Source: a virus
DNA length: 53,395 nucleotides
Strand: one strand, 5' to 3'
IMG/VR virus record: IMGVR_UViG_3300029267_003268
Location: 1 to 53,395 of that record
A program made the translations under genes and the position numbers. Positions 1 through 53,395 of this stretch are shown here, piece by piece. Below the pieces are notes generated by a model. It was not told the origin of the DNA. It saw only the letters and a list, made by a program, of their open reading frames with translations, and ran no database searches. Position 1 is the first letter of the stretch. Every line of letters starts with the position of its first letter.

Positions 1-54
1 GCAACCTACCCCAGACTAACAGGTTACAACAAGGAATAAGTAAAATATGTGTTT
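1..54. repeat. Terminal direct repeat, left copy
   Basis: These 54 bases are identical to 53342-53395. This is expected for a circular molecule assembled with an overlap, or for a terminally redundant phage chromosome. The shared length resembles an assembler k-mer overlap, so it need not be the physical end. Inside it, CAGGTTACAA at 20-29 recurs at 80-89, just outside the repeat. Confidence 0.95.
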
Positions 55-8057: not shown

Positions 8058-8254
8058 AACTGGACGCAACTAATTTCACCTACCAGGGCCATCGACTCTG
8101 GATACAAGACGACGAGGACGGCAGCGCTCGCGCCGCGATGGACTATCGTATCGGCGAAATCGGCCAGCGCGTTCTGCTCGTTCAAGACAAGAACCTTCCC
8201 GTAGAAGAAAGGATCGTACATGGCAAAGAAGAAAGAGACACCCCAAGTGCCTGA
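8054..8254 (+). CDS. Small hypothetical protein
   Basis: 66 aa, begins in a 4-base overlap with the scaffold stop and extends 35 bases into the next gene. No recognised motif. Translation is probably coupled. Confidence 0.5.
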   Translation: MKLDATNFTYQGHRLWIQDDEDGSARAAMDYRIGEIGQRVLLVQDKNLPVEERIVHGKEERDTPSA

Positions 8255-8540
8255 GCCCGTCGAGGCAGAGCCCGTCGAGGCAGAGCCCGTCGAGGCAGAG
8301 CCCGTCGAGGCAGAGCCCGTCGAGGCAGAGCCCGTTGCGGCAGAGCCCGTCGAGGCGAACGTTCAGATTCGGGTCGATATTACCGGCGCTTCCGTGCACC
8401 GATTGAAGGTGCCCGCAAGCCACGTCGATGCGGCCCTGGAACGGATCGTTCGGTGCGGAATCCAACAGCCCGGCGGATCGCCCAACAAAACCCGAGTGTA
8501 TCTGCCCCATCAGTTCGAGGCGGTCACAATCATTCGGTAA
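8220..8540 (+). CDS. Small protein with an EPVEA pentapeptide repeat linker
   Basis: 106 aa. A basic N-terminus (MAKKKETP) is followed by seven Glu-Pro-Val-Glu/Ala-Ala units, then a compact C-terminal domain of about 65 residues (VQIRVDITGASVHRL...). The Pro-Glu repeat should be a stiff extended spacer between two binding ends. AAAGGA precedes the ATG by 7 bases. It is immediately upstream of the capsid leader, so a minor head protein is likely. Confidence 0.65.
   Translation: MAKKKETPQVPEPVEAEPVEAEPVEAEPVEAEPVEAEPVAAEPVEANVQIRVDITGASVHRLKVPASHVDAALERIVRCGIQQPGGSPNKTRVYLPHQFEAVTIIR
8253..8357 (+). repeat. 15-bp tandem repeat, seven units
   Basis: GAGCCCGTCGAGGCA or a close variant is repeated seven times in frame and encodes the EPVEA tract. 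Units 1-5 are nearly identical at the DNA level, so copy number could vary by slippage without breaking the frame. Confidence 0.9.
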
Positions 8541-10259: not shown

Positions 10260-13166
10260 ATGAAGAAACGCATCTTCTTTGCGGTACTGCTGGCGATGCT
10301 GTGGGGCGCTCCGCGCGCCCCGGCGGCTATGACCAACAGTGCCAGCAATATTGTCAGTCCTGACTACGTCTCGTTCATCGGCTCGATGAGTACGACGTTG
10401 GACCCGGTCTATCTGTTCGGTAACGAGGTCGAGGGTTTGCTGGAGGGCACCAGTGCCTTCGGCAATCTGCTCGATACGGATTCCTATATCCAGTTTGCCG
10501 AGATGAGCGCTCCGGGCAGTCCGGCGGCCAATCACGGCCGCCTCTACGTCGCCGACGACAGCGGGACTACCACCCTCTACTTCAAGGACTCCAGCGGCAC
10601 CGTGTCGAGTTGCATTTCCGGCTCCGGCACGTTCACCGGCGGTGCAATCAGCAGCGACGTGACCCTGGCGAACGGGGTGGACATCTACAGCTCCACAACC
10701 GCCGCCCATACCAGCAGCATCGGCGTGCGTCGTGATTCTGCCTACGTAGACGCTTTTCGCTGGACGAACCACGACACCACGCCGGCCCTGGTCCTGGGGT
10801 CTGCGACAACCTCGTTAGCCGTCACTTCAACGGGCCTGAACGTTACGACCGCCGGCGCCGTTACGGGCGTAACCGATCTGACGGCGACCGGGACGCAGAC
10901 GATCAACGCCAGCGGCTCGGACGCCACCAATATCGGCACCGGGTCCTATTCCGGTACGGTAACGCTCGGCAACAACTCCGCCAGTGTCGCCGTCGGCTCC
11001 TCGGCCTGGGACATTAGTAGCGACGGGGCCATGAGCGGCTTTTCCAGCCTCGGCCTGTCCGGTGATATTACGATGGCCCACGGCAAAGGCGTTAAATCCT
11101 CGACGACCACCGCTCAGAGCGTGGGCGTCTACGGGTACGACGTCGGCGCCGGCTACGTGGGGGCCCTGGTCGTTACCAATTCCGCTACTCCGGCCACCGT
11201 CTTGGGCAATACCAGTGGCACTACGGCCATTTCGTCCAGCGATTGGACGGTGAGCACCGCCGGCAACGCGGCCGGGCTCGGTACGATCACCTCGGACGGG
11301 CTCTTTACCTGTACCGGCGGCGAGACGATGACGGGAACGGTGTCGATCAACGACAGCGCGACCACGTCCACCACCAGTATCGGGGGCGGTACGACCACGG
11401 GCACCATTACCATCGGTGGCACCGGGACGCAAGCCGTGGACATCGGCAATGGGGCCGGCATCAAAACCGTGGCCCTCGGCAGCAGTACCACGTCGAGTAC
11501 GACCACGATCAAGGGCGGCTCCAACGGCGTCAACGTCAACGTCTCGGCCGACGACCCCACCAATATCAATACGGGCACCTCGACCGGCACGGTGACAATC
11601 GGCGGCACCGGCGCACTGGCCATTGCCATCGGCGACGGCGGGACCGGGGCCAAGACGATTACCCTGGGCGACGGCGCGGGGGCTGGCTCGACGACCATCA
11701 AGGCCGGAACGGGCAACCTCGACCTATCCGCCGTCGATGACGTTTCACTCAACGGCGGCTCCGCCGGCTCTATTATCGCCATCGGCACCAACACCCACGG
11801 CAACGTCCTGAATATCGCTACGGATGACACCGCGCTCGACGACATCAACATTGGTAGCGCCAAGGACACTCCCACGATTCTCGGCTCGGCCATTGTTATC
11901 ACGGCCGGGACGGACAATCTGGCCATGAGTGCGACCGATGACGTGAGCTTGAACGGCGGGTCCGCCGGTTCAATCCTGAACCTGATGACCAATACCCACG
12001 GCAACGTCCTGAATATCGCTACGGACGACACCGCGCTGGATGACATCAACATCGGCAGTGCTAAGGATACGCCGACGATTCTCGGTGCGACCATCGTCGT
12101 GACCGCCGGGGACGGCGATCTTACAATGAGTTCGAACGACGACGTCACGCTCAACGGGGGTAGCGCCGGCTCGATTATCAATATCGGGACGAACACCCAC
12201 GGCAACGCGATCAACGTCGGCACCAACAACACGACCGCCGATACCATTGCCGTCGGCAGTGCCAAGGACACCGTTACCGTCGATGGTATCTCCACCACTA
12301 TTGGTTCGACGGGCACGACCTCGGCGACCATCATCCAGTCGGGCACGTCCGACCTCGACATCAACGCCGGGGCCGCCCTGGACATCGACGCGGCGACAAC
12401 TCTCGATATCCTGGCCGGGGGCGCCTTCTCCATCGACGGCTCCAACGCCGCCAGTAACATCTCCCTGGCGACGAACGGCGACAGCGACGACTTCACCATC
12501 GGTCTGACCGGCGCCACCAATTCCAGCATCCTACTCAACAGCACGGGTACGGGCACCGATGCGATTGGGCTGACGGCCGGGGCTGGGGGCATTACCGCGA
12601 GCGCTGCGACCGGGGCCGTCGCCCTGTCCGGTCTCACCGGCAATACCATCACGGCTACCGCCGTCGCCGACGGCGCCAAGGGCACGACGCTGTCCGGCTC
12701 CATCGCCGGGGCGACCGCCTCCGAAGGCGTCGGGGCGTACGTCGAGGGCAATATCACCGGCAATACGGACGGGAAGGTCTATGCCTTCGGTTCCTGGCTC
12801 AACGTCACTGCCGGTACGCCGACCGACGGGAGCGACGCCATCCTCGCCGGAGCGGACGTCGGTATCTACGCCGCCGCCGCGCCGGAACTGGTGAACTGCA
12901 AGCTGCGCGTCTTGAACCTGGAGTATCAGGTCCACGCGGACGCCGGGCCGATCGACGACACCACGTCGATGATCCACTTCAACGCCGATTCCGGCGGGGA
13001 CGTGCCCGACTACCTGTTCACGTTCGGCAATGCGGACGCCGCTGTATACACGGCCAATACGACGCATACAGCGGCCAATACCGATAAGATCGGCGCCATC
13101 AAGATCAGCATTACTGGCACCGCCGAGAACGCTTACCTCTACGTTTATAGCCATGCCGGACAGTAA
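10260..13166 (+). CDS. Repeat-rich fibre-like protein with a Sec signal peptide
   Basis: 968 aa. The N-terminus has a textbook signal peptide: basic MKKR, a hydrophobic core (IFFAVLLAMLWG) and an APAA cleavage site near residue 23. The body is Gly/Thr/Ser-rich. It has imperfect repeats such as GTITIGGTG and three roughly 66-residue units containing LNGGSAGS and NTHGN (about 11735-12290). This suggests a beta-solenoid fibre. The last 90 residues form a distinct domain. AAAGGAGAACACTATC precedes the ATG. Position suggests a head or neck fibre. A signal peptide on a virion protein is unexpected. Confidence 0.75.
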   Translation: MKKRIFFAVLLAMLWGAPRAPAAMTNSASNIVSPDYVSFIGSMSTTLDPVYLFGNEVEGLLEGTSAFGNLLDTDSYIQFAEMSAPGSPAANHGRLYVADDSGTTTLYFKDSSGTVSSCISGSGTFTGGAISSDVTLANGVDIYSSTTAAHTSSIGVRRDSAYVDAFRWTNHDTTPALVLGSATTSLAVTSTGLNVTTAGAVTGVTDLTATGTQTINASGSDATNIGTGSYSGTVTLGNNSASVAVGSSAWDISSDGAMSGFSSLGLSGDITMAHGKGVKSSTTTAQSVGVYGYDVGAGYVGALVVTNSATPATVLGNTSGTTAISSSDWTVSTAGNAAGLGTITSDGLFTCTGGETMTGTVSINDSATTSTTSIGGGTTTGTITIGGTGTQAVDIGNGAGIKTVALGSSTTSSTTTIKGGSNGVNVNVSADDPTNINTGTSTGTVTIGGTGALAIAIGDGGTGAKTITLGDGAGAGSTTIKAGTGNLDLSAVDDVSLNGGSAGSIIAIGTNTHGNVLNIATDDTALDDINIGSAKDTPTILGSAIVITAGTDNLAMSATDDVSLNGGSAGSILNLMTNTHGNVLNIATDDTALDDINIGSAKDTPTILGATIVVTAGDGDLTMSSNDDVTLNGGSAGSIINIGTNTHGNAINVGTNNTTADTIAVGSAKDTVTVDGISTTIGSTGTTSATIIQSGTSDLDINAGAALDIDAATTLDILAGGAFSIDGSNAASNISLATNGDSDDFTIGLTGATNSSILLNSTGTGTDAIGLTAGAGGITASAATGAVALSGLTGNTITATAVADGAKGTTLSGSIAGATASEGVGAYVEGNITGNTDGKVYAFGSWLNVTAGTPTDGSDAILAGADVGIYAAAAPELVNCKLRVLNLEYQVHADAGPIDDTTSMIHFNADSGGDVPDYLFTFGNADAAVYTANTTHTAANTDKIGAIKISITGTAENAYLYVYSHAGQ
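11735..12330 (+). repeat. About 200-bp in-frame repeats in the fibre gene
   Basis: Three consecutive copies start near 11735, 11936 and 12138. The first two share long identical runs around ACGGCAACGTCCTGAATATC. They encode the LNGGSAGS/NTHGN protein units and could recombine. Confidence 0.75.
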
Positions 13167-19834: not shown

Positions 19835-22800
19835 ATGGCGACCTTTACGACCAAACAGATTGACGATGCCTTCGCCGCCGCCGATACGGTCAACAGCGAT
19901 ATCGAGCGAGCGTTCACCGCCGCCGACGCAGCCCAGCCGAAGAAGCGACGGACGCAGTTTGGGTTCGGGGCGATGGGTCCGCGCGTCGAGCCGTTGCCGA
20001 CGAAGACCCGCAGCGAAGTGGCCGCCGACATGGTGAAGGATCACGACCAGACGGGCCTGAGCTATCCGGATCTGTTCGGCATCTACGATCAGGCCGGCTC
20101 GCAGAGCGATAAGGCTGCCGCCCTGGACCAGCTCATTCTGCGCCGTCAGTATCGCGGCGTCCTGGACGAAATCGGGATGGGACTGGAATCGGGGGCCGCC
20201 AATGTGGAGGGCAGCGCCGCAGGGACGCTCGGCAGCGCACTGCGCCGCGTGGCCCGGTCGCCGTTGTTCTACGGCCTCACGCGGTTTGGTCCGTTCAACT
20301 ATGATGCCGCAAAGGTGGAGCGGGTCGGGGCGGCGTGGGACGATTACGCCCAGCAGCTCTACGACTATTCCAGTTCGCCGCTCTTTCAGCCTGGCAAAGG
20401 GGCCGGGGCCGGGGGCTGGCTGGCCAATACCGTCGCGAAAACGGCGCCCATGATGGGTCTGGCGACCGGGGCGACCTTGGCGACCGGCGGGGCGGCCGGG
20501 GGCTTTCTCGTCGGGGCCGTGGTGGAGGGCGATAACGCCTACCGCGAAGCCCTGGCCGACGGCGCGTCCGAGGAAGAGGCGCAGATGGCCCGCTACGTCG
20601 TGGGAACGGTCAACGGCGTGATTGAAGTAGCGCAGGTCGGCCACATTATGAAGCTGGGCAAGGGCGCTTCCAAGGCGGTTGCCAAGGAGTTCGCCGGCGA
20701 GGCCAGCGATCGCGCCTTGAAGAAGATTGCCCGCGTGGTCGGCAAGCTCGGGAAACAGCATATTGAAGCCTCGATCAAGGAGGGACTCGAAGAAGTGGCC
20801 CAGGAATGGGTCGGGGCCGGGGCCGCAACGATCATCTACGATAAAGATATCGACGTTGAGGACATGATAACACGGCGCTCCCCGACGGCCTTCGCCGGGG
20901 GGGCCGGGGCGGGGTTCTTCTTAGGCGGCGGGTCGCTGGTCTTCAACGCCGCCACAGAGATCGCCGAGGCGACGACCCCGGCTCAGGCAGAGCCCGAAAT
21001 CCCGCAGATGCCGATGGTCGCTACAAAGGAGACGTACGATGCGGCCGTAGCCGAACGGGAGAAAGCGGTCGCCGCACAGCAAGCCGAGACCAAACCCGAA
21101 GCCAAACCGACCGAAGAAAAACAGACCCCGCCCCCGGCCACACCCACCGAGCCGACCGTTGAGGCAAAAGCGCCGGGGGAGGCGGGGCCTGGGGAATGGA
21201 CAGAGGAAATAAGCCCTAAGACGGGCGACATCACCAAGAGAATCCGAGGAGTAGTCCCAAAAGGAGAAGAAGGCGAAGGGGGGGCGATAGAGGTTACGCT
21301 AACATTCAACAAAGACGGAAGTCTGCGCTGGGTTACGGCGAACCACCCCGGAACTCATAATTTTGAATCACAAGTCCAGTTAGACATCGGATTTTTCCCA
21401 GACGGGGCTGGAGGCTTTCGCGCACTTACGGTCCACGATGACCCGTCTTTGGTTCTGCCGCGAATAGACGATATTATCACCCCGGCGACGCAAGAAACAA
21501 TGCCGGGCGCGGCGGGGCCTGGGGAAGCCACTACCGAAAAGGAGGCCGAACATGCCGAGCGTATCCCAGAAACAGGCGAACTTCATGCGGATGTGCATGA
21601 GCAGCGCCGGGCGCAAGAAGGCCAAGAAGAAGTGCCCGCCGAAGAAGGTGGCGAGGCATTACGTACAGGCCGACCGACGACTGAATCGGTGGGGGCTGTA
21701 GAGGCCCGCGAGCCGTGGGAGATGACGAGGGAGGAATATGCCCCACCGCCTCCCGCAGGTGTTTCAGAAGAGGCTCGCCACAAGGGCATGTTGGATGTCT
21801 CCGCTGTACGGGCAGGCTACGCCGCTGTATTGCGAGGTTTGGAGCCCGCCCGGTTGGTGATTGAAAAACATGGCCGTGCGCCCTATGCGGAAGTGATTAA
21901 GGCTATGCACCGGCCGGAGGCCGAAACGCTGGAATTCAACGACGCCCGCCTGGACGCCGTCGATGCGACCGTAAGTGAATTTGAGAAGGAACTGCAAAAG
22001 TACCCGGACAACGTTCTCGAAATGGTGATGCTCTCGCGCGGTCACGGGCTTGAAGGCAAGGCGCGGGCGCTGCAACGAGAAGCCTTTGCCAAAATGCCGA
22101 AGGCGCTAAAGGACTCGAAGATTCGCCGCGCGCTGGACGAAATCGCCGATGACAATTATCGCTACCTCCAGGAAGTCGCCGGGAAGGATGTAGGTAAGGT
22201 CGAAGACTACTTCTACGGCATCTACAAGGGCGGACGCAAAGTCAGTGCTTTCCTCAAACACTGGCGGACCACCGATCGTTATACCAAGCGCAAGAGCTTT
22301 CCCACCTACGCCGACGCCAAAGCCTTCGGGCTGGAAGCGCGAACGAAGAACCCCGTAGAGAATCTGCGGAGGGAGTTTCAGGCGATTGCGCGCCGGACCG
22401 CCATGCAGCAGTTGCACGATTACATGATGGCCGAGGGCAAGGGTATCTATATTGAAGAAACAGACAAGGCGCCTGCCGATTGGGACTTTATCGGGGACCC
22501 GTTGCGACCGGAGCCGGCCTTTGTCGACGCGCGCGTTGAACCGACAATGGCCGCGCTTATCAACAGCCTGATTTCTACCAATAAGATTACGCAGAACAAA
22601 GCCCTGAACGTGATGCGCAAGGTGAACAATGCCCTGCGCAGTTTGAAGTTCATCGGCAGCGCGTTTCACGCCTGGCAGATTGCCAAGCAATCTATCGCTG
22701 ATACCGGCTTCTTGGGTTTCTACAAAGGGACGTCGCGCACGGGCTTCAAGGCACTCTTTACCAACATGACGAAAGACCCCGCGCTGCGTCCTGCGTACCG

Positions 22801-24211
22801 GGACTATATTGAGCACGGCGGCGGCCATCAATACTCTATTGAGTCCGAGGCCCAGCGCGCCGTCAAGAGCATGATGCACGAACTCGACGCAGGGTCCAGG
22901 GTAATCCTCAAAGGCGTAGCGGCGCCGTTTAAGGTGCCCGTTGGTTTTGTGAACTGGATGTTCGAGCAGTACATCCCGGCTGTGAAGTTCGGTAAGTACC
23001 TTGATTCTGTGGGCGAAGCGGTCGGAAAGCAGGGCCGGGAGCTTACCTCGGTAGAGAAGATTGAGCTTATCAAAGAACAGCAGAATTTCTATGGCATGAT
23101 GAACGAACGCCTCTTTGGCCGTAGCGGAACGGTAACGACCGCCTTACGGTTTATCTTCATGGCGCCGGGATACGCGGAGGGCAACTATCGTACGATGTTC
23201 AAGGCCGCCACCCAATGGGGACGCGGGGCTGAGGGTTACAGCGCCGGGCGGTCCCGACGCAATATCGTCAATTCGTGGGTAGTGACTGGGACGCTTGCTA
23301 CCATTGGGACGATAATCCTGACTGGCAAGCCGCCTGAGAAACCGGAGGATCTGGATGATGTACGAGACCTATTGAAGATCGATACTGGCAAGAGAGACCA
23401 ACACGGCGACCGGATTATGATCGATCTGGCCAGCTACGATAAAGATTACTGGAACGTGGCCTTCAATACCCTGCGCGGTCGGCCGGACAAAGCGGTTACG
23501 GAATCACTCAAGCGGATTGGCGGTATGAAGGCGACCAGCTTTGAGATGCTTCACGATGCACAATCGCTGTTTCTGGGCAAGGCGATCTACGATTGGAAGG
23601 GCGACATGGTTTATCGTCCGACCGACCCGTTCGTAGAGAAAATGGCCGAACTGTTTGCACATGAGTTACGCAGGCTGGTCCCTATTTCCGTAAGCGTATT
23701 CAGTCAGAGTCGAAACAAGGGCCTGGATGATTCAGTCGCCGCAATGGAAGCGTTGATTGGATTGCGACCGACCTATGATGAGGATACCTTGAGCAAACGT
23801 GCCGCTATGCGAGACTGCTGGGACCTTCGCGAGAAGCGCGAAGCATTGGCGTGGCGATTGGATCAGTACAAAGATCCCTGGGGGGCAATAGAGTATTACA
23901 ATGAGCAGGTGAAACGGGTGCTCAAGCCCGACTTTGTGCCGAACGATATGCGGCAAGAATGGGAGAAAAAGCTACTTATTGATCCGGTTAGGGTCCTCAA
24001 TTGGAAGCATTTCCCGCCTCATGCAATGACGCTTGCGCAATTACGCAAGGCTATCGCGTCGCACATATATAAGAAACCGTACACTCGCAGTGACGGGCGA
24101 CGCTATCCTGCGGGGCACCCTCATACGGGTTATGAAGATCGGGTGGCGACGTTGCGAGCTGAACTGCAAAAACGTTCTGCCTCTACGCAAGGGACAAGGA
24201 GTACGCGATGA
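19835..24211 (+). CDS. Large internal virion or polyvalent protein (gp16-like)
   Basis: 1458 aa, the largest gene. The N-terminal third has Gly/Ala-rich hydrophobic stretches (GLATGATLATGGAAGGFLVGAVVEGDN and FAGGAGAGFFLGGG) that could insert in membranes. A Pro/Glu-rich linker follows near residues 410-450 and again near 560-640. The C-terminal 700 residues are helical and resemble the large polyvalent protein domains (LPD38 type) common in giant ejection proteins. It is probably injected with the DNA. No lytic transglycosylase motif could be identified. A domain flanked by direct repeats is described separately. Stop overlaps the next start. Confidence 0.7.
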   Translation: MATFTTKQIDDAFAAADTVNSDIERAFTAADAAQPKKRRTQFGFGAMGPRVEPLPTKTRSEVAADMVKDHDQTGLSYPDLFGIYDQAGSQSDKAAALDQLILRRQYRGVLDEIGMGLESGAANVEGSAAGTLGSALRRVARSPLFYGLTRFGPFNYDAAKVERVGAAWDDYAQQLYDYSSSPLFQPGKGAGAGGWLANTVAKTAPMMGLATGATLATGGAAGGFLVGAVVEGDNAYREALADGASEEEAQMARYVVGTVNGVIEVAQVGHIMKLGKGASKAVAKEFAGEASDRALKKIARVVGKLGKQHIEASIKEGLEEVAQEWVGAGAATIIYDKDIDVEDMITRRSPTAFAGGAGAGFFLGGGSLVFNAATEIAEATTPAQAEPEIPQMPMVATKETYDAAVAEREKAVAAQQAETKPEAKPTEEKQTPPPATPTEPTVEAKAPGEAGPGEWTEEISPKTGDITKRIRGVVPKGEEGEGGAIEVTLTFNKDGSLRWVTANHPGTHNFESQVQLDIGFFPDGAGGFRALTVHDDPSLVLPRIDDIITPATQETMPGAAGPGEATTEKEAEHAERIPETGELHADVHEQRRAQEGQEEVPAEEGGEALRTGRPTTESVGAVEAREPWEMTREEYAPPPPAGVSEEARHKGMLDVSAVRAGYAAVLRGLEPARLVIEKHGRAPYAEVIKAMHRPEAETLEFNDARLDAVDATVSEFEKELQKYPDNVLEMVMLSRGHGLEGKARALQREAFAKMPKALKDSKIRRALDEIADDNYRYLQEVAGKDVGKVEDYFYGIYKGGRKVSAFLKHWRTTDRYTKRKSFPTYADAKAFGLEARTKNPVENLRREFQAIARRTAMQQLHDYMMAEGKGIYIEETDKAPADWDFIGDPLRPEPAFVDARVEPTMAALINSLISTNKITQNKALNVMRKVNNALRSLKFIGSAFHAWQIAKQSIADTGFLGFYKGTSRTGFKALFTNMTKDPALRPAYRDYIEHGGGHQYSIESEAQRAVKSMMHELDAGSRVILKGVAAPFKVPVGFVNWMFEQYIPAVKFGKYLDSVGEAVGKQGRELTSVEKIELIKEQQNFYGMMNERLFGRSGTVTTALRFIFMAPGYAEGNYRTMFKAATQWGRGAEGYSAGRSRRNIVNSWVVTGTLATIGTIILTGKPPEKPEDLDDVRDLLKIDTGKRDQHGDRIMIDLASYDKDYWNVAFNTLRGRPDKAVTESLKRIGGMKATSFEMLHDAQSLFLGKAIYDWKGDMVYRPTDPFVEKMAELFAHELRRLVPISVSVFSQSRNKGLDDSVAAMEALIGLRPTYDEDTLSKRAAMRDCWDLREKREALAWRLDQYKDPWGAIEYYNEQVKRVLKPDFVPNDMRQEWEKKLLIDPVRVLNWKHFPPHAMTLAQLRKAIASHIYKKPYTRSDGRRYPAGHPHTGYEDRVATLRAELQKRSASTQGTRSTR
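21181..21526 (+). repeat. In-frame domain insertion bounded by 16-bp direct repeats
   Basis: GGCGGGGCCTGGGGAA occurs at 21181-21196 and 21511-21526, exactly 330 bp apart, so the frame is kept. The enclosed 110 codons form a compact beta-rich domain (VTLTFNKDGSLRWVTANH) unlike the Pro/Glu linkers around it, with visibly lower GC. Both repeats encode AGPGE. This looks like a domain gained by recombination between short repeats. Confidence 0.65.
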
Positions 24212-27200
24212 AAACGATTGTACTGGCGTTACTACTGACGGCGGCGGTGTGGGGGGCGGGGGTAGAGACTGTTTATGAACCCACAATTTATTCCTGCAAC
24301 GGCTCGACGAAGAGCTTCACCTTTTCCTGGGACATCTGGAATACGAGCGCTTCGACCCACGAGGACCTCGTCGTGATCCTGGTGGACTCCGACGGCGACC
24401 CGAGGACCCTGACGGAGAACTCCTCGGGCACCTACGGCTATTCCGTGGCCGCCACCAACAACGACTTCCGGGACGGGCCGGGCGGGACGGTGACGACCGT
24501 TACCGCGTTCGCCAGCGGCTACCAGATCGTCTTGCAGCGGGCCACGCCGCGCACGCAGACCAACAGCTACGGAACGCAGAGCGCCCCGACCGAACGGGAA
24601 GTGGGCAATTCCGTGGACCGACTGACGCTGATGGTCCAGGACCTCGCCGAGCAGGTCGGCCGGGCGCTGCGGGCGCCGGTAGTGGACTACGCCGAGGATA
24701 TGAACCTGCCCGCCGGGTTCGGCAGTGACGTCGGCTACACCTACTGGAACGGTTCGGCCTGGGTGCTGGCGACTACGGGCGTCGATATCGGGTCCCTCAG
24801 CGCCGCCTGGACCGACGTTACCGACGGCACGACCACGACGCTGGCGAACGGGCGCACCGTCCGCGACCAGTTGGGCCGGCCGTTCATCAATGTCAAGACG
24901 GACTACGACGCCGACGATACGGGGACGAGCGAGAGTAGTACGGAGATTCAGGCGGCGATAGATGCGGCGAACACCGCCGGCGGCGGTACCATCTATTTCC
25001 CGGAAGGCACGTACATCGCCGATGCGCTCACCTTGCAGAGCAATCTCACGCTACTCGGCGACGGGATTGGGGCCAGTACGATTAAGATGAAGGACTCGGC
25101 GACGGACGATTTGTTCACGGCGACCAGCGAAAACTATATCTCCGTGCGCGGCCTGACCTTCGATCTGAACGGGAGCAATCAGGGGAATCCGAGCAGTCCG
25201 GCGAGCAAACGAGGGCTCTACTTCAACACGAGCAATCACGTTCGCGTGCAGAATTGCCATTTCAAAGGCTTCTTTGAATATTACATCGATTGCTACACCG
25301 CCTCCGACATTTGGATTCAGGACTGCTACTTCACAGGCAGTGTTCCAGGTACGCCCACGGAATGGACTTCCGGCGACCTCCATTTTACAACGTGTAGTGA
25401 CGTACGAGTACAGAACTGCACGATGGACCACGCCACTCCCAGCGACGCCGACCACGCGATTATCGGGGTGTTTCTGAGTGGCGTGGTGCGCGGCCAAGTG
25501 ACGGGCAACCATTTCATCAACTGCGGGAAGGATACCGGCGGCGGGCATCAGGGCGCTGCCATCGACTTCTATCGAGACTGCGATGATGTGCACGTTCACA
25601 ACAACACCCTGGAGAGTTGCCAGTACATCGGCTGCCGCATCAGTCGTTCTACGAACATTTGGATCAGCGAATGCAGTATTGATACGAGCGATTCGGGGAC
25701 GCAGGAGGCCATCCAAATCTATGCCGACGCGACGACGGATACCGACCGTATCTGGGTGGTAGACTGCAATCTAATGACCAATGATGCCAGCGGCGAGTGC
25801 GTGCTGGTGAGCACCAATGATGCGGCCGGCGACGAGCCGAACGACATTCACATTATCGGCAATACCATGACCGGGCGGTACGGGGTCCATGTGGATACAG
25901 GCGGCTACGGTATCGAGGTCAAGGATAATGTCATCGAGACGACGTATCCCGCGATTCGGGTCGATGAAGGGGGCTCCGCCGCCGTGCTGTCCGGCGTAGT
26001 GGTTGCCGGCAACGTCTGTAGAATGCAGAACTGCGCCGACCAGTACGCCATTCAGGTGGACGGTGACGATGCGGTCGTCGCCAATAACCTGATCCTCGAC
26101 GCCTACAACGGTATCGCGCTGAAGGTCGCCAGCAACGGACTCGTCTGCGGCAATGTAATCGAAGCTTCGAACGACCATCTCCTCGTATACAACGAGACGC
26201 AGGACTGCGATGTGCATGGTAATAAGTATATCGGTGCGGGGACCGTGCTGTGGAATCAGGGGTCCGGCGTGATCGATACGGTCGTGTACGCCCGTGGGAA
26301 CAAGGCGGCGGCCGGGTCGGTGGTGATCGGCGAGGACTCCGACGACGGCACGAATACGCTCACGTTGCAGGCGCAGGCGATGACGGGGAATGTCACGCTC
26401 ACCCTGCCGGCCGACGATGGAGACAACGGGGAGGTCCTGACTACGAACGGTTCGGGCGTGACGAGCTGGTCGGCTGCCGGGGCGGGGGACATTACGGCGG
26501 TCGGCGACTCGGCCAGTGGGGCGGCCTTCACTGCCGATGGGACTGGCAACACCCTGCACTTCGAGGGGTCGAGCGCCGATGCCCACGAGACTATTATTCA
26601 GGGCTACGACGTGGCGGCAGATGTGACGTTCACCTTGCCGCCCGACGATGGAGATGCCGGAGAGCAGTTGCAGACCGATGGCTCGGGCAATCTGACATGG
26701 GAGGCCGCCGGCACGGTCTCCGTCGCTGACGACGAGAGCACAGACGACGGGCACGAGGTCGTGTTCACCACCGACAACACAAACCTGGAGTCCGACGGCA
26801 ATTTTACCTACAACCCGTCCAGCGGGACGGTTGCAGCTACCGAGTTCAGCGGCGGGGGCGGCAATCTGACCGGCGTGGATGCCGCAACGGGAGACAGCGC
26901 GACCGACTTCTTCGACGCCGGTGAAATCCCCGATGACCGGATCAGCGACACCCTGACGTCGAGTACCTGTACGGGCACCGCAGCCATAGCGACGGCGGTT
27001 ACGATTACCGACAATGAGAGTACGGCCGAGAACAATCCCCTGGTCTTTGTCCCGGACGGCGACTTGGACGGCGGCAATTTGGGTCTGGAATCGGATGGTA
27101 CGTGTTACTACACGCCGAGCACGGGCGTTATCACGACTACGGGCTTCGCCGGGGCCTTAACGGGCAATGTGACCGGCGATGTAACCGGCTCCTCCGGTAC

Positions 27201-28392
27201 CTGTACCGGCGAAGCTGCTTCTGTCACCAACGCCACCTTCACCACTGCCCTGACGGTCAATACCGGGACGGTCACGCTGACCGGCCATGCCGACAACGAT
27301 TCTGCACTGACCATTGGCAAGGGCGCGGTTTCGGTGTCCGGCACGAATACCGGGGACAATACCGTCGCGACCTCGGGCGACGCGGCGGTGGACTTCTTCG
27401 GGGCAGGCGTGGACGCTGTTACCGACGCAACGACCTGCACGGACATAGAAGGCACCAAGCTCAGTATCACCGGCGGCACGCTCAACTGCACCGAGACCGA
27501 CAGCGTCGTAGGGGCGGTCTCCGGGATCGTCAAGGCCGACGGCGGGGGCAATATCAGCGCCGCCGTGGCGGGCACCGACTACATGGCGGCGGCGAAATTG
27601 GTGGATATTGTGTGCTCCGGGACGGGCCTTTCCGGCGGGGCCGACGACGTACTGCCGGGCACCGACGCGGACGTGACCATTACCCTCACGCCGGACACCG
27701 TAGCCGGGGCGATCACTGCCGGATCGTACAACAACGATTCGATTCAAGCCGATGACATCGACACGATCAACTGCGGTACGAGCTGCACCTGGGATGCAGC
27801 GAACGACGAGATCGATGTAGACGATGACTTCCTCAAGAACGACGGTGATAGCGGCACCGGTGACTACGACTTCGGCGGAGCGGACCTGGAACTGCCGCAG
27901 GGCCAGACGCCGGACACCGACGGCGATATCGACCTGGACTTCACCGACGGCTCGGTGGTCATTCAACATGGCAGCGCCCACGCGGAATTGGCCGCCTCGA
28001 CCGATGTGGTGGTGGGCAAGCTGATTCGCTCGTTCAGCGCGACGTTGGCCTTCCCCGACTTGCTGCAAGCGGAGATTGACAACTGGCCGCTCAAGGCGAT
28101 TGAGGCCACGGAGTTCCCGCACGGCGTCGTCGTTACCGACATTCACATTAAGACCTCGGCCTCTTCCACGTATGCGATCAACGTAGAGAACTGGGATGAC
28201 CCGACAACGATCAACGGGGTCAATCCGACCATCGATGCGATCACTACCAGTTCCAGTACCGAGGCGAGTGAAGATACGATCACCTATGCCACGATAGCGG
28301 CGGGACAGATCATCATGCTCGATCTGCCTACCACCGACATTAGCTGGGTGCAGATCCAAGTCGAGTACTACGAACCTATTACGAGCCCGTAA
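24208..28392 (+). CDS. Tail fibre or tailspike with beta-helix and a signal peptide
   Basis: 1394 aa. Residues 20-160 match the T7 gp17-like fibre attachment domain (YSCNGSTKSFTFSW, then VLQRATPRTQTNSYG and EVGNSVDRLTLMVQDLAEQ). Residues about 230-650 form a right-handed beta-helix of pectate-lyase type (IQAAIDAANTAGGGTIYFPEGTY), the fold of capsule-degrading spikes. The rest is repetitive and ends in a receptor-binding-like domain. It starts MKTIVLALLLTAAVWG, an apparent signal peptide, with AAGGAG 7 bases before the ATG, so this start is well supported. Relatives of the attachment domain usually lack such a leader. Confidence 0.8.
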   Translation: MKTIVLALLLTAAVWGAGVETVYEPTIYSCNGSTKSFTFSWDIWNTSASTHEDLVVILVDSDGDPRTLTENSSGTYGYSVAATNNDFRDGPGGTVTTVTAFASGYQIVLQRATPRTQTNSYGTQSAPTEREVGNSVDRLTLMVQDLAEQVGRALRAPVVDYAEDMNLPAGFGSDVGYTYWNGSAWVLATTGVDIGSLSAAWTDVTDGTTTTLANGRTVRDQLGRPFINVKTDYDADDTGTSESSTEIQAAIDAANTAGGGTIYFPEGTYIADALTLQSNLTLLGDGIGASTIKMKDSATDDLFTATSENYISVRGLTFDLNGSNQGNPSSPASKRGLYFNTSNHVRVQNCHFKGFFEYYIDCYTASDIWIQDCYFTGSVPGTPTEWTSGDLHFTTCSDVRVQNCTMDHATPSDADHAIIGVFLSGVVRGQVTGNHFINCGKDTGGGHQGAAIDFYRDCDDVHVHNNTLESCQYIGCRISRSTNIWISECSIDTSDSGTQEAIQIYADATTDTDRIWVVDCNLMTNDASGECVLVSTNDAAGDEPNDIHIIGNTMTGRYGVHVDTGGYGIEVKDNVIETTYPAIRVDEGGSAAVLSGVVVAGNVCRMQNCADQYAIQVDGDDAVVANNLILDAYNGIALKVASNGLVCGNVIEASNDHLLVYNETQDCDVHGNKYIGAGTVLWNQGSGVIDTVVYARGNKAAAGSVVIGEDSDDGTNTLTLQAQAMTGNVTLTLPADDGDNGEVLTTNGSGVTSWSAAGAGDITAVGDSASGAAFTADGTGNTLHFEGSSADAHETIIQGYDVAADVTFTLPPDDGDAGEQLQTDGSGNLTWEAAGTVSVADDESTDDGHEVVFTTDNTNLESDGNFTYNPSSGTVAATEFSGGGGNLTGVDAATGDSATDFFDAGEIPDDRISDTLTSSTCTGTAAIATAVTITDNESTAENNPLVFVPDGDLDGGNLGLESDGTCYYTPSTGVITTTGFAGALTGNVTGDVTGSSGTCTGEAASVTNATFTTALTVNTGTVTLTGHADNDSALTIGKGAVSVSGTNTGDNTVATSGDAAVDFFGAGVDAVTDATTCTDIEGTKLSITGGTLNCTETDSVVGAVSGIVKADGGGNISAAVAGTDYMAAAKLVDIVCSGTGLSGGADDVLPGTDADVTITLTPDTVAGAITAGSYNNDSIQADDIDTINCGTSCTWDAANDEIDVDDDFLKNDGDSGTGDYDFGGADLELPQGQTPDTDGDIDLDFTDGSVVIQHGSAHAELAASTDVVVGKLIRSFSATLAFPDLLQAEIDNWPLKAIEATEFPHGVVVTDIHIKTSASSTYAINVENWDDPTTINGVNPTIDAITTSSSTEASEDTITYATIAAGQIIMLDLPTTDISWVQIQVEYYEPITSP

Positions 28393-31970: not shown

Positions 31971-32709
31971 ATGTGTATTCCGGCCAGTTTTGTCGTAACG
32001 AAAGAGCGTGTCTTTTGGTCGAAGAACACGGACTCGCACGAAGAAATCATTTGCGAGTTCAGGTTGAAAGAGATGGACGTGCGCGGCACACCCACATTGG
32101 TCCGCATCGAAATAACCCCGCCGATGGCGGACCTGGGTAAGCCCCTCACGGATTGGGTATACCACCTCGACCGACAGGATATTCGACCGAGTTGGTACGA
32201 CGCCGCCGATGTTGAGCGACGCGCCCGATCCGTCTTGCCCCAGTGGCGTGACGCGAAAGTCGTCGGTCCTGGCGAGGTGCGCGAAAAGCACACGGAAGGC
32301 CAAATCTACGTCTACGGCGGGACCGTGCAGAAGGTCTACAACGGCGGGACCGTGCAGAAGGTCTACGGCGGGACCGTGCAGGAGGTCTACGGCGGCGGGA
32401 CCGTGCAGGAGGTCTGCGACGGCGGGACCGTGCAGAAGGTCTACGGCGGGACCGTGCAGGAGGTCTAAGGAGGTCTACGGTGGCGGGACCGTGCAGGAGG
32501 TCTACGGCGGGACCGTGCAGAAGGTCTACAACGGCGGGACCGTGCAGAAGGTCTACGGCGGGTCCGTGCAGAAGGTCTGCGACGGGACCGTGCAGACGTA
32601 TGTACCTCTCGCGGAAATCGAACTGATAGGGACAAGCGTCCTGATTGAGCGTGTTAATGGCCGGGTCTCGGTGCGCACTGGGGACGGCCGGAGTTTGCGG
32701 GAGAAGTGA
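31971..32709 (+). pseudogene. Repeat-rich DUF7666-like protein split by a 10-bp duplication
   Basis: The first reading frame (31971-32468) starts MCIPASFVVTKERVFW, an N-terminal domain that I associate with DUF7666-type phage proteins, then enters GGTVQ-K/E-VY repeats. A TAA ends it at 32466-32468. Translation resumes in another frame with the same repeats and a unique C-terminus (PLAEIELIGTSVL ... GDGRSLREK) ending at 32709. The cause is visible: AGGAGGTCTA occurs twice in tandem around 32458-32477. Removing one copy rejoins the frames into one protein of about 243 residues. It may be a slippage on/off switch, a fresh mutation or an assembly error. Confidence 0.75.
32315..32600 (+). repeat. 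Degenerate 21-24 bp tandem repeats encoding GGTVQxVY units
   Basis: Units built on GGCGGGACCGTGCAGAAGGTC or the GAGGTC variant repeat about a dozen times. Each encodes a short strand-turn unit, so the protein probably forms a small beta-solenoid. Near-identity of units makes the tract prone to slippage. Confidence 0.85.
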
Positions 32710-33248: not shown

Positions 33249-33281
33249 CCCCTGTGGTTGTAGCTCTCAGACAAATTGACT

Positions 33282-33353
33282 TGCGGGGTAGTGTAGTGGT
33301 AACACGCTGGGCCCATAACCCAGAGATTGCGAGTTCGATTCTCGCCCCCGCTA
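33282..33353 (+). tRNA. tRNA-Met (CAT), initiator-like
   Basis: A complete cloverleaf can be drawn: D stem GTGT/ACAC, anticodon arm CTGGGCCCATAACCCAG, 5-nt variable loop AGATT, T arm GCGAG-TTCGATT-CTCGC, and acceptor GCGGGG/CCCCGC. The anticodon is CAT (33314-33316). The stem has three stacked G-C pairs below the loop, and position 33 is C instead of the usual T. Pair 1-72 is T-T, unpaired. GGG/CCC and a 1-72 mismatch are initiator hallmarks; the T11-A24 pair is elongator-like. The discriminator is A; no CCA is encoded. It lies about 140 bp upstream of the integrase. Confidence 0.88.
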
Positions 33354-33426
33354 TTATGGGCTCGACACATTAGACTGCGGCTCTTTGGCAAGTTCATATG
33401 AGGATGCACAATGGAAACATAACGTC

Positions 33427-33455
33427 TTGCGACCTATGACTGGTGTTGGTACGAT
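33427..33455 (+). promoter_or_regulatory. Possible integrase promoter
   Basis: TTGCGA (33427-33432), 17 bp, then TACGAT (33450-33455); each hexamer matches consensus at four of six. A 6-bp hairpin GTCGGC/GCCGAC (33459-33478) follows in the leader and may limit translation. Confidence 0.4.
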
Positions 33456-33496
33456 GCGGTCGGCTTGCGAGGGCCGACTGGAAAGTAGGTGTTATC

Positions 33497-34438
33497 ATGC
33501 AACAGTCAATCGCAAGCTGTTTCGAGCTATATCTGGCTCGATCTGACTTACGCCCATCGTCGGTAAGGTTCAAAAAGCAGGCGTTGCGGTACTTTCTCAA
33601 GTGGTTCGGCGATCTGGAAATTGGGTCTGTTACCCCTGCGATAGCAGAAGACTATCGGACGCTGCTGGTGAAAGAAGGGCGGTCGCGAAGCACGGCCAAC
33701 GGCTATCTCGCGAACTTCAAGCCATTCTGGAACTGGCTCAGGCGGCACGGACGAGTCCCGGCAAATCCGTTTGACGGGGTTAAACCGTTCAAGATTACCG
33801 AACCGGCGCGGGAGACGTTTACGCCCGCCGAACTGGCGCGATTGATGACGGTAGGCGACCCGCTATGGCAGGGGCGCATCTGTCTCGGACTGCTGGGCTG
33901 TCGGCGTGGTGAAACGCTCAACGTGACCGTCGCGGACATCCATTTGGATGCCACCGTGCCGCATATCCTGCTGGCACCGAAGACGGTGGGACCGGACCGC
34001 TGGGCCTGGGAACTCAAGGATCATGCGATCCGGTACGTCGCGTTGCCGAAGATGATGCGGTTTGTCGGGCGCACGGTGGATCTGCACGGGTTGATTGGTG
34101 GCCTGATAGCAGCGTTGCCGTCAGGTCAACCGTATGTGTTTGTCGAACCGCGTTACTACCGGCGATGCGTCGGTCGAACGTGGGTACCGGACCCGACTGG
34201 GAACTTTCAACGGATGTTCCGGGCCGTACAGCGCCGGGCACAGATCGAGCCACCGCGTAGGTATCACGAGTTACGAGCGGCTTTCGCCACCGCCATGATT
34301 GACGCCGTTGGGCTCAGTCGGGCGGCGGACGCACTCGGACACTCAACTACGCAACTCACACGAAAGTATGATCGTCACGGAAAGATGTCGTTGCTGTCGG
34401 AAATCGGTTCGGCAGCACAAAAATGTTATGTGTCGTAG
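33497..34438 (+). CDS. int: Tyrosine-family integrase
   Basis: 313 aa. Residues about 1-100 form a SAM-like core-binding domain (LRPSSVRFKKQALRYFLKWF). The catalytic domain shows Arg136 (GCRRGE), His257-x-x-Arg260 (HELR), His282 (GHST) and the nucleophile Tyr291 (TRKYDRH). It inserts the phage at its attachment site and marks it as temperate. The start is chosen after the leader hairpin; an in-frame ATG at 33443 would add 18 residues unlike the family. It sits between a tRNA gene and a set of short repeats, both typical of attachment regions. Confidence 0.92.
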   Translation: MQQSIASCFELYLARSDLRPSSVRFKKQALRYFLKWFGDLEIGSVTPAIAEDYRTLLVKEGRSRSTANGYLANFKPFWNWLRRHGRVPANPFDGVKPFKITEPARETFTPAELARLMTVGDPLWQGRICLGLLGCRRGETLNVTVADIHLDATVPHILLAPKTVGPDRWAWELKDHAIRYVALPKMMRFVGRTVDLHGLIGGLIAALPSGQPYVFVEPRYYRRCVGRTWVPDPTGNFQRMFRAVQRRAQIEPPRRYHELRAAFATAMIDAVGLSRAADALGHSTTQLTRKYDRHGKMSLLSEIGSAAQKCYVS

Positions 34439-53341: not shown

Positions 53342-53395
53342 GCAACCTACCCCAGACTAACAGGTTACAACAAGGAATAAGTAAAATATGTGTTT
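53342..53395. repeat. Terminal direct repeat, right copy
   Basis: Identical to 1-54 over its full length. See the left copy. Confidence 0.95.

Follow-up and report, generated by a model that had tools for sequence, protein, structure and literature searches.

What does a phage gain from a single tRNA gene with a CAT anticodon, placed beside an integrase gene, in which position 33 is C rather than the U that is nearly invariant across tRNAs? Such a gene could serve initiation or elongation, or it could be part of the machinery of integration. The window, meaning the whole 53,395-nt stretch of viral DNA analysed here, contains the following features at the locus.

33282..33353, + strand: initiator-type tRNA(CAU) with C33, U1·U72, A73 and no encoded CCA (ARAGORN, Rfam, fold, classifier).
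33307..33323, + strand: anticodon arm CTGGG-CCCATAA-CCCAG, with three G-C pairs and C33 (read from the sequence; the 17-mer is also present in IMG/VR).
33426..33516, both strands: three CTTGCGA motifs (33426 +, 33464 +, 33510 -) in the tRNA-integrase gap and the integrase start.
33443..34438, + strand: tyrosine integrase ORF (PF00589, 1.8e-8; phrog_1, 1.9e-34; 55% relative L395).

The gene is called by ARAGORN as tRNA-Met(cat) at 33281-33354, with no second tRNA in the full 53,395 nt, and the RF00005 match at 33282-33353 (66.7 bits, E 2e-12) is the sole Rfam match at gathering threshold in the window. The acceptor stem (TGCGGGG/CCCCGCT) places U1 opposite U72, followed by G2-C71, C3-G70, G4-C69 and three further pairs, and A73 is followed by TTA in place of CCA. 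The D stem is GTGT/ACAC, with a short D loop. The anticodon loop reads C32 C33 C34 A35 U36 A37 A38 on a stem with G29-G31/C39-C41, the variable region is AGATT and the T arm is GCGAG-TTCGATT-CTCGC. Sequence, ARAGORN and Rfam bear out what an earlier note on this DNA had described: the CAT anticodon, the three G-C pairs, C33 and the T-T opposition at 1-72. Free folding of the RNA gives -28.7 kcal/mol, with the acceptor, anticodon and T arms all formed, whilst the full cloverleaf, at -28.5 kcal/mol, is at most 0.2 kcal/mol from this minimum. A shifted 5' end had been raised as a possible cause of the 1-72 mismatch. Pairing U-1 with A73 gives -25.6 rather than -28.5 kcal/mol, about 3 kcal/mol worse, and the mismatch stays.

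The 3' trailer TTATGGGC (33354-33361) could pair without a mismatch with GCCCATAA (33311-33318), the region of the anticodon loop, and is largely common to L018 (TTATGGG). Trailer-loop complementarity as a general feature was rejected, with 3 7-mer matches against 2.2 in shuffles over 1767 distinct tRNAs, which is chance level.

The anatomy points to an initiator. According to the available part of one account, an elongator can be converted to an initiator by two transplantable features, a 1:72 mismatch and three G-C pairs (PMC11231383), and the window tRNA has both, in the form of U1·U72 without a Watson-Crick pair and three consecutive G-C pairs at 29-31/39-41. Formylation is directed by an unpaired 1-72 with A73, G2-C71, C3-G70 and G4-C69, and R11:Y24 is a formyltransferase feature, as stated in the accessible text of PMC9976931. 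The minor determinants G2-C71, C3-G70, G4-C69 and A73 are all present in the window tRNA. R11:Y24 is absent; 11:24 is U:A, the single feature at odds with the initiator class. Because viral tRNAs with this arm vary widely at 11:24, R11:Y24 is treated here as typical of initiators rather than defining.

A broader comparison drew on ARAGORN runs over the collected loci, from which 339 distinct CAU tRNA rows parsed well. Among the viral ones, positions 1 and 72 are mismatched in 147 of the 188 with GGG/CCC but in only 5/43 whose stem is different. The classifier, which scores position by position, learned from 195 initiator-type and 67 elongator-type CAU rows, with positions 1, 72, 29-31, 33 and 39-41 left out; since its labels were set by the left-out positions, it tests the agreement of the remaining molecule with the initiator class. 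The window tRNA scores +29.3 bits toward initiator and outscores 58 of the 195 initiator rows. The leave-out maximum for elongator-type rows, in which Met and Ile2 are pooled rather than separated, is 8.6 bits, and none of the 67 reaches the window tRNA score. Membership of the initiator class is well supported by these sequence comparisons, and the earlier note's description of the tRNA as initiator-like is upheld by both the association of the mismatch with GGG/CCC and the classifier scoring that it had proposed. If the gene were instead an unusual elongator, Met or Ile2, the U:A pair at 11:24 and the short D loop would be accounted for, but the gap between +29 bits and the elongator maximum makes this highly improbable.

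How unusual is C33 in a tRNA of this class? IMG/VR has the exact 17-nt C33 arm in 33 contigs, including a near-identical counterpart of the window, and its U33 version in at least 120 rows. Of 120 rows listed for a pattern that accepts either C or U at 33, two were unidentifiable and one of the remaining 118 was unparsed, leaving 117. Among these listed matches, C33 is found in 12/117 phage tRNAs of this arm type, two of which (L247 and L254) parse poorly, and in 9 of the 82 with a 1:72 mismatch. In a sample of five bacterial phyla, C33 was found in 0/351 genomes with a match (upper 95% bound 0.85%): 0/88 in Planctomycetota (149 searched), 0/92 in Actinomycetota (100 searched), 0/62 in Pseudomonadota, all with U33 (100 searched), 0/91 in Bacillota (101 searched) and 0/18 in Patescibacteria (78 searched). 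The search patterns differed slightly between phyla, all permitting C or U at 33, and genomes without a match, often drafts or with other stems, were counted neither way. The cell counts exclude five centre genomes, which had been picked for their C33 matches; in one of these, G004, the C33 match is a chance, non-tRNA one, and in another, G005, it seems to belong to a mobile element. The contrast between phages and bacteria (12/117 against 0/351) gives a Fisher p of about 4e-8, which is optimistic, the phage rows being mutually related.

C33 does occur in cells. The C33 pattern matches at least 117 stretches in cellular (GTDB) genomes, a few of them chance non-tRNA matches, and the lineages among the matches listed include Weissella/Leuconostoc relatives, some Phycisphaerae, Erysipelotrichaceae, Patescibacteria, DPANN and Thermoplasmata. 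In some Planctomycetota, such as L349 (U1·U72, A73, no CCA), a C33 initiator is the genome's only match. C33 initiators are therefore not exclusive to animals, but are found in some bacterial and archaeal lineages and recurrently in phages. The earlier note had called C33 rare in bacteria, which agrees with the sampled genomes, and had known it from animal initiators, a link that does not hold as an exclusive one. In Actinomadura G005, two host initiator copies have U33 and a third CAU tRNA, near a contig end (L321/L393, G005:C28:244-273), has C33 and probably belongs to a mobile element.

Among phages, the change seems to have happened more than once. When position 33 is ignored, the nearest neighbour of a viral C33 tRNA is a U33 tRNA in 21 of 36 cases, a C33 tRNA in 12 and a tie in 3; this preponderance of U33 neighbours suggests that C33 arose repeatedly in phage initiators. 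A weak tree of 272 short tRNAs, which requires a minimum of 25 changes for the 153 viral rows with a 1:72 mismatch (29 of them C33) and has no shuffle control, only agrees with repeated origin. A contig-wide change of position 33 is ruled out: other tRNAs have C33 in 3/109 cases on contigs with a C33 initiator and in 52/907 on contigs with U33 initiators, so that the change is specific to the initiator tRNA. C33 is nevertheless present in 61 of 1155 non-CAU tRNAs from the collected viral stretches (about 5%). Phage tRNAs are thus generally looser at this position, and the initiator excess over them is only about twofold (p 0.036, again optimistic for related phage rows). Some C33 CAU tRNAs (L003, L009, L013, L025 and L026) are compact, with a shortened variable/T-arm region; ARAGORN called the first four (69 nt) and missed L026.

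The genome around the tRNA encodes a terminase (phrog_36964), a head-tail connector (PF12236), a GP7-type capsid protein (PF20911) and the tyrosine integrase, together with a replication-initiation protein match and methyltransferases. This gene content is that of a podovirus-like, possibly temperate phage. Its structural proteins resemble those of named relatives only distantly (23% for the portal, up to 30% for the capsid). A near-identical contig (IMGVR 3300017987_000171) carries the same tRNA. Tandem repeats of 24-27 nt (GTCTACGGCGGGACCGTGCAGAAG type) lie at 32310-32596, within ORFs directly before the tRNA, and their copy arrangement appears different in the near-identical contig. Elsewhere there are a 15-bp repeat of 6.9 copies before the capsid gene (8253-8356), a 201-bp repeat of 2.3 copies in a large late ORF (11748-12207) and two neighbouring very long ORFs of 1458 and 1394 aa (19835-28392). 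The integrase ORF begins, from its listed GTG, 89 bases downstream of the tRNA, with the ATG at 33497 as the probable true start. The CTTGCGA motifs are possible candidates for integrase binding or regulatory sites; the heptamer occurs 16 times in the whole window against 13.5 expected, so is not over-represented, and the motifs are partly kept in L395.

Its closeness to the integrase gene had led the earlier note to suggest the tRNA as an attachment site. It could be an attP element for integration into the host initiator gene, and a planctomycete integrase relative (30%, L398) is followed by a tRNA gene, a tRNA-Pro(ggg) on the opposite strand. The wider context argues otherwise. A 54-bp direct terminal repeat, 1..54 (+) and 53342-53395, closes the contig on itself with the tRNA inside. 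In L395, the region upstream of the 55%-identical integrase has CTTGCRA repeats in common with the window, but the 8.9 kb stretch examined contains no tRNA. On 19 other C33 contigs, none of the 20 larger ORFs chosen near the tRNA is an integrase by Pfam, and terminase or portal genes lie near the C33 initiator tRNA in L011, L014, L016, L023, L034 and L256. In L018, a tRNA 82% similar to that of the window is inside a tRNA array. None of 392 planctomycete genomes, a group that may not include the host, matches the tRNA 3' end over 20 nt. Because the L395 stretch is without the tRNA, none of the ORFs chosen on the 19 other C33 contigs is an integrase and some of these tRNAs lie near terminase or portal genes, the gene seems to be carried as cargo and not as a site for recombination. 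The attachment-site proposal is left unsupported, and an attP role is very unlikely.

Might the phage tRNA simply mirror a host that itself uses a C33 initiator? The best cellular relative of the integrase is from a planctomycete (30%, E 9e-22, in 1 of 294 genomes), with relatives in 0/249 Pseudomonadota genomes at 1e-12 and matches of 25-27% in phages and plasmids, and it is in Planctomycetota that C33 is in some genomes the only match. Set against this are the lack of C33 in the 88 other planctomycetes with a match, the D and T arms, which are unlike those of C33 initiators in planctomycetes, and the nearest tRNAs, which are viral (84%). Moreover, the phylum of the host of Pseudomonas phage D3, which has a C33 initiator of its own, is U33 in 62/62 genomes with a match. 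Mirroring of the host is on this evidence unlikely.

The reading that we favour, and regard as fairly probable, is that the phage encodes a working initiator tRNA in which C33 is tolerated and, in some phages, alters recognition by host enzymes. From its anatomy, the tRNA would be transcribed and receive its CCA from the host enzyme, be charged by MetRS through the CAU anticodon, be formylated by way of the open 1-72 end with G2-C71, C3-G70, G4-C69 and A73, and enter the P site by virtue of its three G-C pairs. A phage initiator of this kind could keep translation initiation going in infection if the host initiator tRNA were limiting or damaged. The U33 turn is required in the A site, which the initiator bypasses, so that C33 would be tolerated and could persist. 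Tolerance may also be the whole explanation: with direct P-site entry there would be weak selection on the U33 turn, and C33 would be neutral in phage tRNAs that drift more than cellular ones. Its frequency in the other phage tRNAs and its fixation in several cellular lineages are in keeping with neutrality. However, the loop is otherwise constant, a pattern with 33 and 37 both free adding, among the matches listed, a single contig whose loop differs (L397, U37), and drift should have yielded A33 and G33 as well. Neutrality is a serious possibility that falls short of being probable.

Under the favoured reading, C33 in some phages might change how the initiator is recognised by host enzymes whose target is its anticodon stem-loop. 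An example would be the VapC type, which cuts initiator tRNA between the anticodon stem and the loop (PMC8522696, available portion). Taken alone, a protective role for C33 is tentative. The bolder proposal that phages of several bacterial groups repeatedly evolved C33 initiators as a counter-defence against anticodon-loop nucleases or initiator-directed enzymes is doubtful; if it were true, the initiator tRNA would be a contested phage-host target. The favoured reading is weakened by the U:A pair at 11:24, by the presence of C33 in other phage tRNAs and by the observation, in the accessible text of PMC10264068, that tRNA-fMet genes are generally avoided by phages if the attack is on the anticodon itself.

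Phage initiator tRNAs are already known. Those encoded by cyanophages and T5, as described in the available text of PMC4810235, are like the window tRNA in being phage genes of the initiator class, from which it differs in C33, in U1·U72 and in being the sole tRNA of its phage. In the literature searched on phage initiator tRNAs or position 33, with subscription papers mostly outside the search, no description of phage C33 initiators, and so of this phage-enriched variant, was found. Anticodon-loop changes in phage tRNAs are predicted to allow escape from tRNases, and such tRNAs share with the window tRNA a changed anticodon-loop base; the main text of this source (PMC10264068) mentions neither position 33 nor C33, and escape through C33 is hypothetical here.

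The planctomycete C33 initiators (L349, L353) are like the window tRNA in C33, an unpaired 1-72, A73 and no encoded CCA, and unlike it in A11:U24, a longer D loop, a TCGGG stem, another T arm and a cellular location. The animal cytosolic initiator has C33 and GGG/CCC in common with it, but has a paired A1-U72 and is not formylated. For annotators, C33 in a CAU tRNA would be a sign of an initiator and not of an error.

The closest comparison is with named phages. The tRNA-Met of Pseudomonas phage D3 (AF165214, 53398-53473) resembles the window tRNA in its CCCATAA loop, GGG/CCC, 1:72 mismatch (C1·U72) and A73; unlike the window tRNA, it encodes CCA, has A11:U24 and lies near lysis genes, not an integrase. 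FBPa47 has the same arm type (CCCATAA, GGG/CCC, C1·U72), and in both phages the C33 initiator is in a block with tRNA-Gly, -Asn and -Thr, beside holin or lysis-region genes, the holin genes of FBPa47 coming after the tRNA block. The P. aeruginosa initiator is presumably U33. Virus Rctr197k combines C33 with U1·U72, and Janthinobacterium phage Donnerlittchen also has C33; with D3, these make 3 of the 21 phage records read, which were taken from BLAST lists and are not a sample, FBPa47 being additional. Phage C33 initiators, among them that of the laboratory phage D3, provide a concrete handle both on what leads phages to encode initiator tRNAs and on the role of U33 in the P site.
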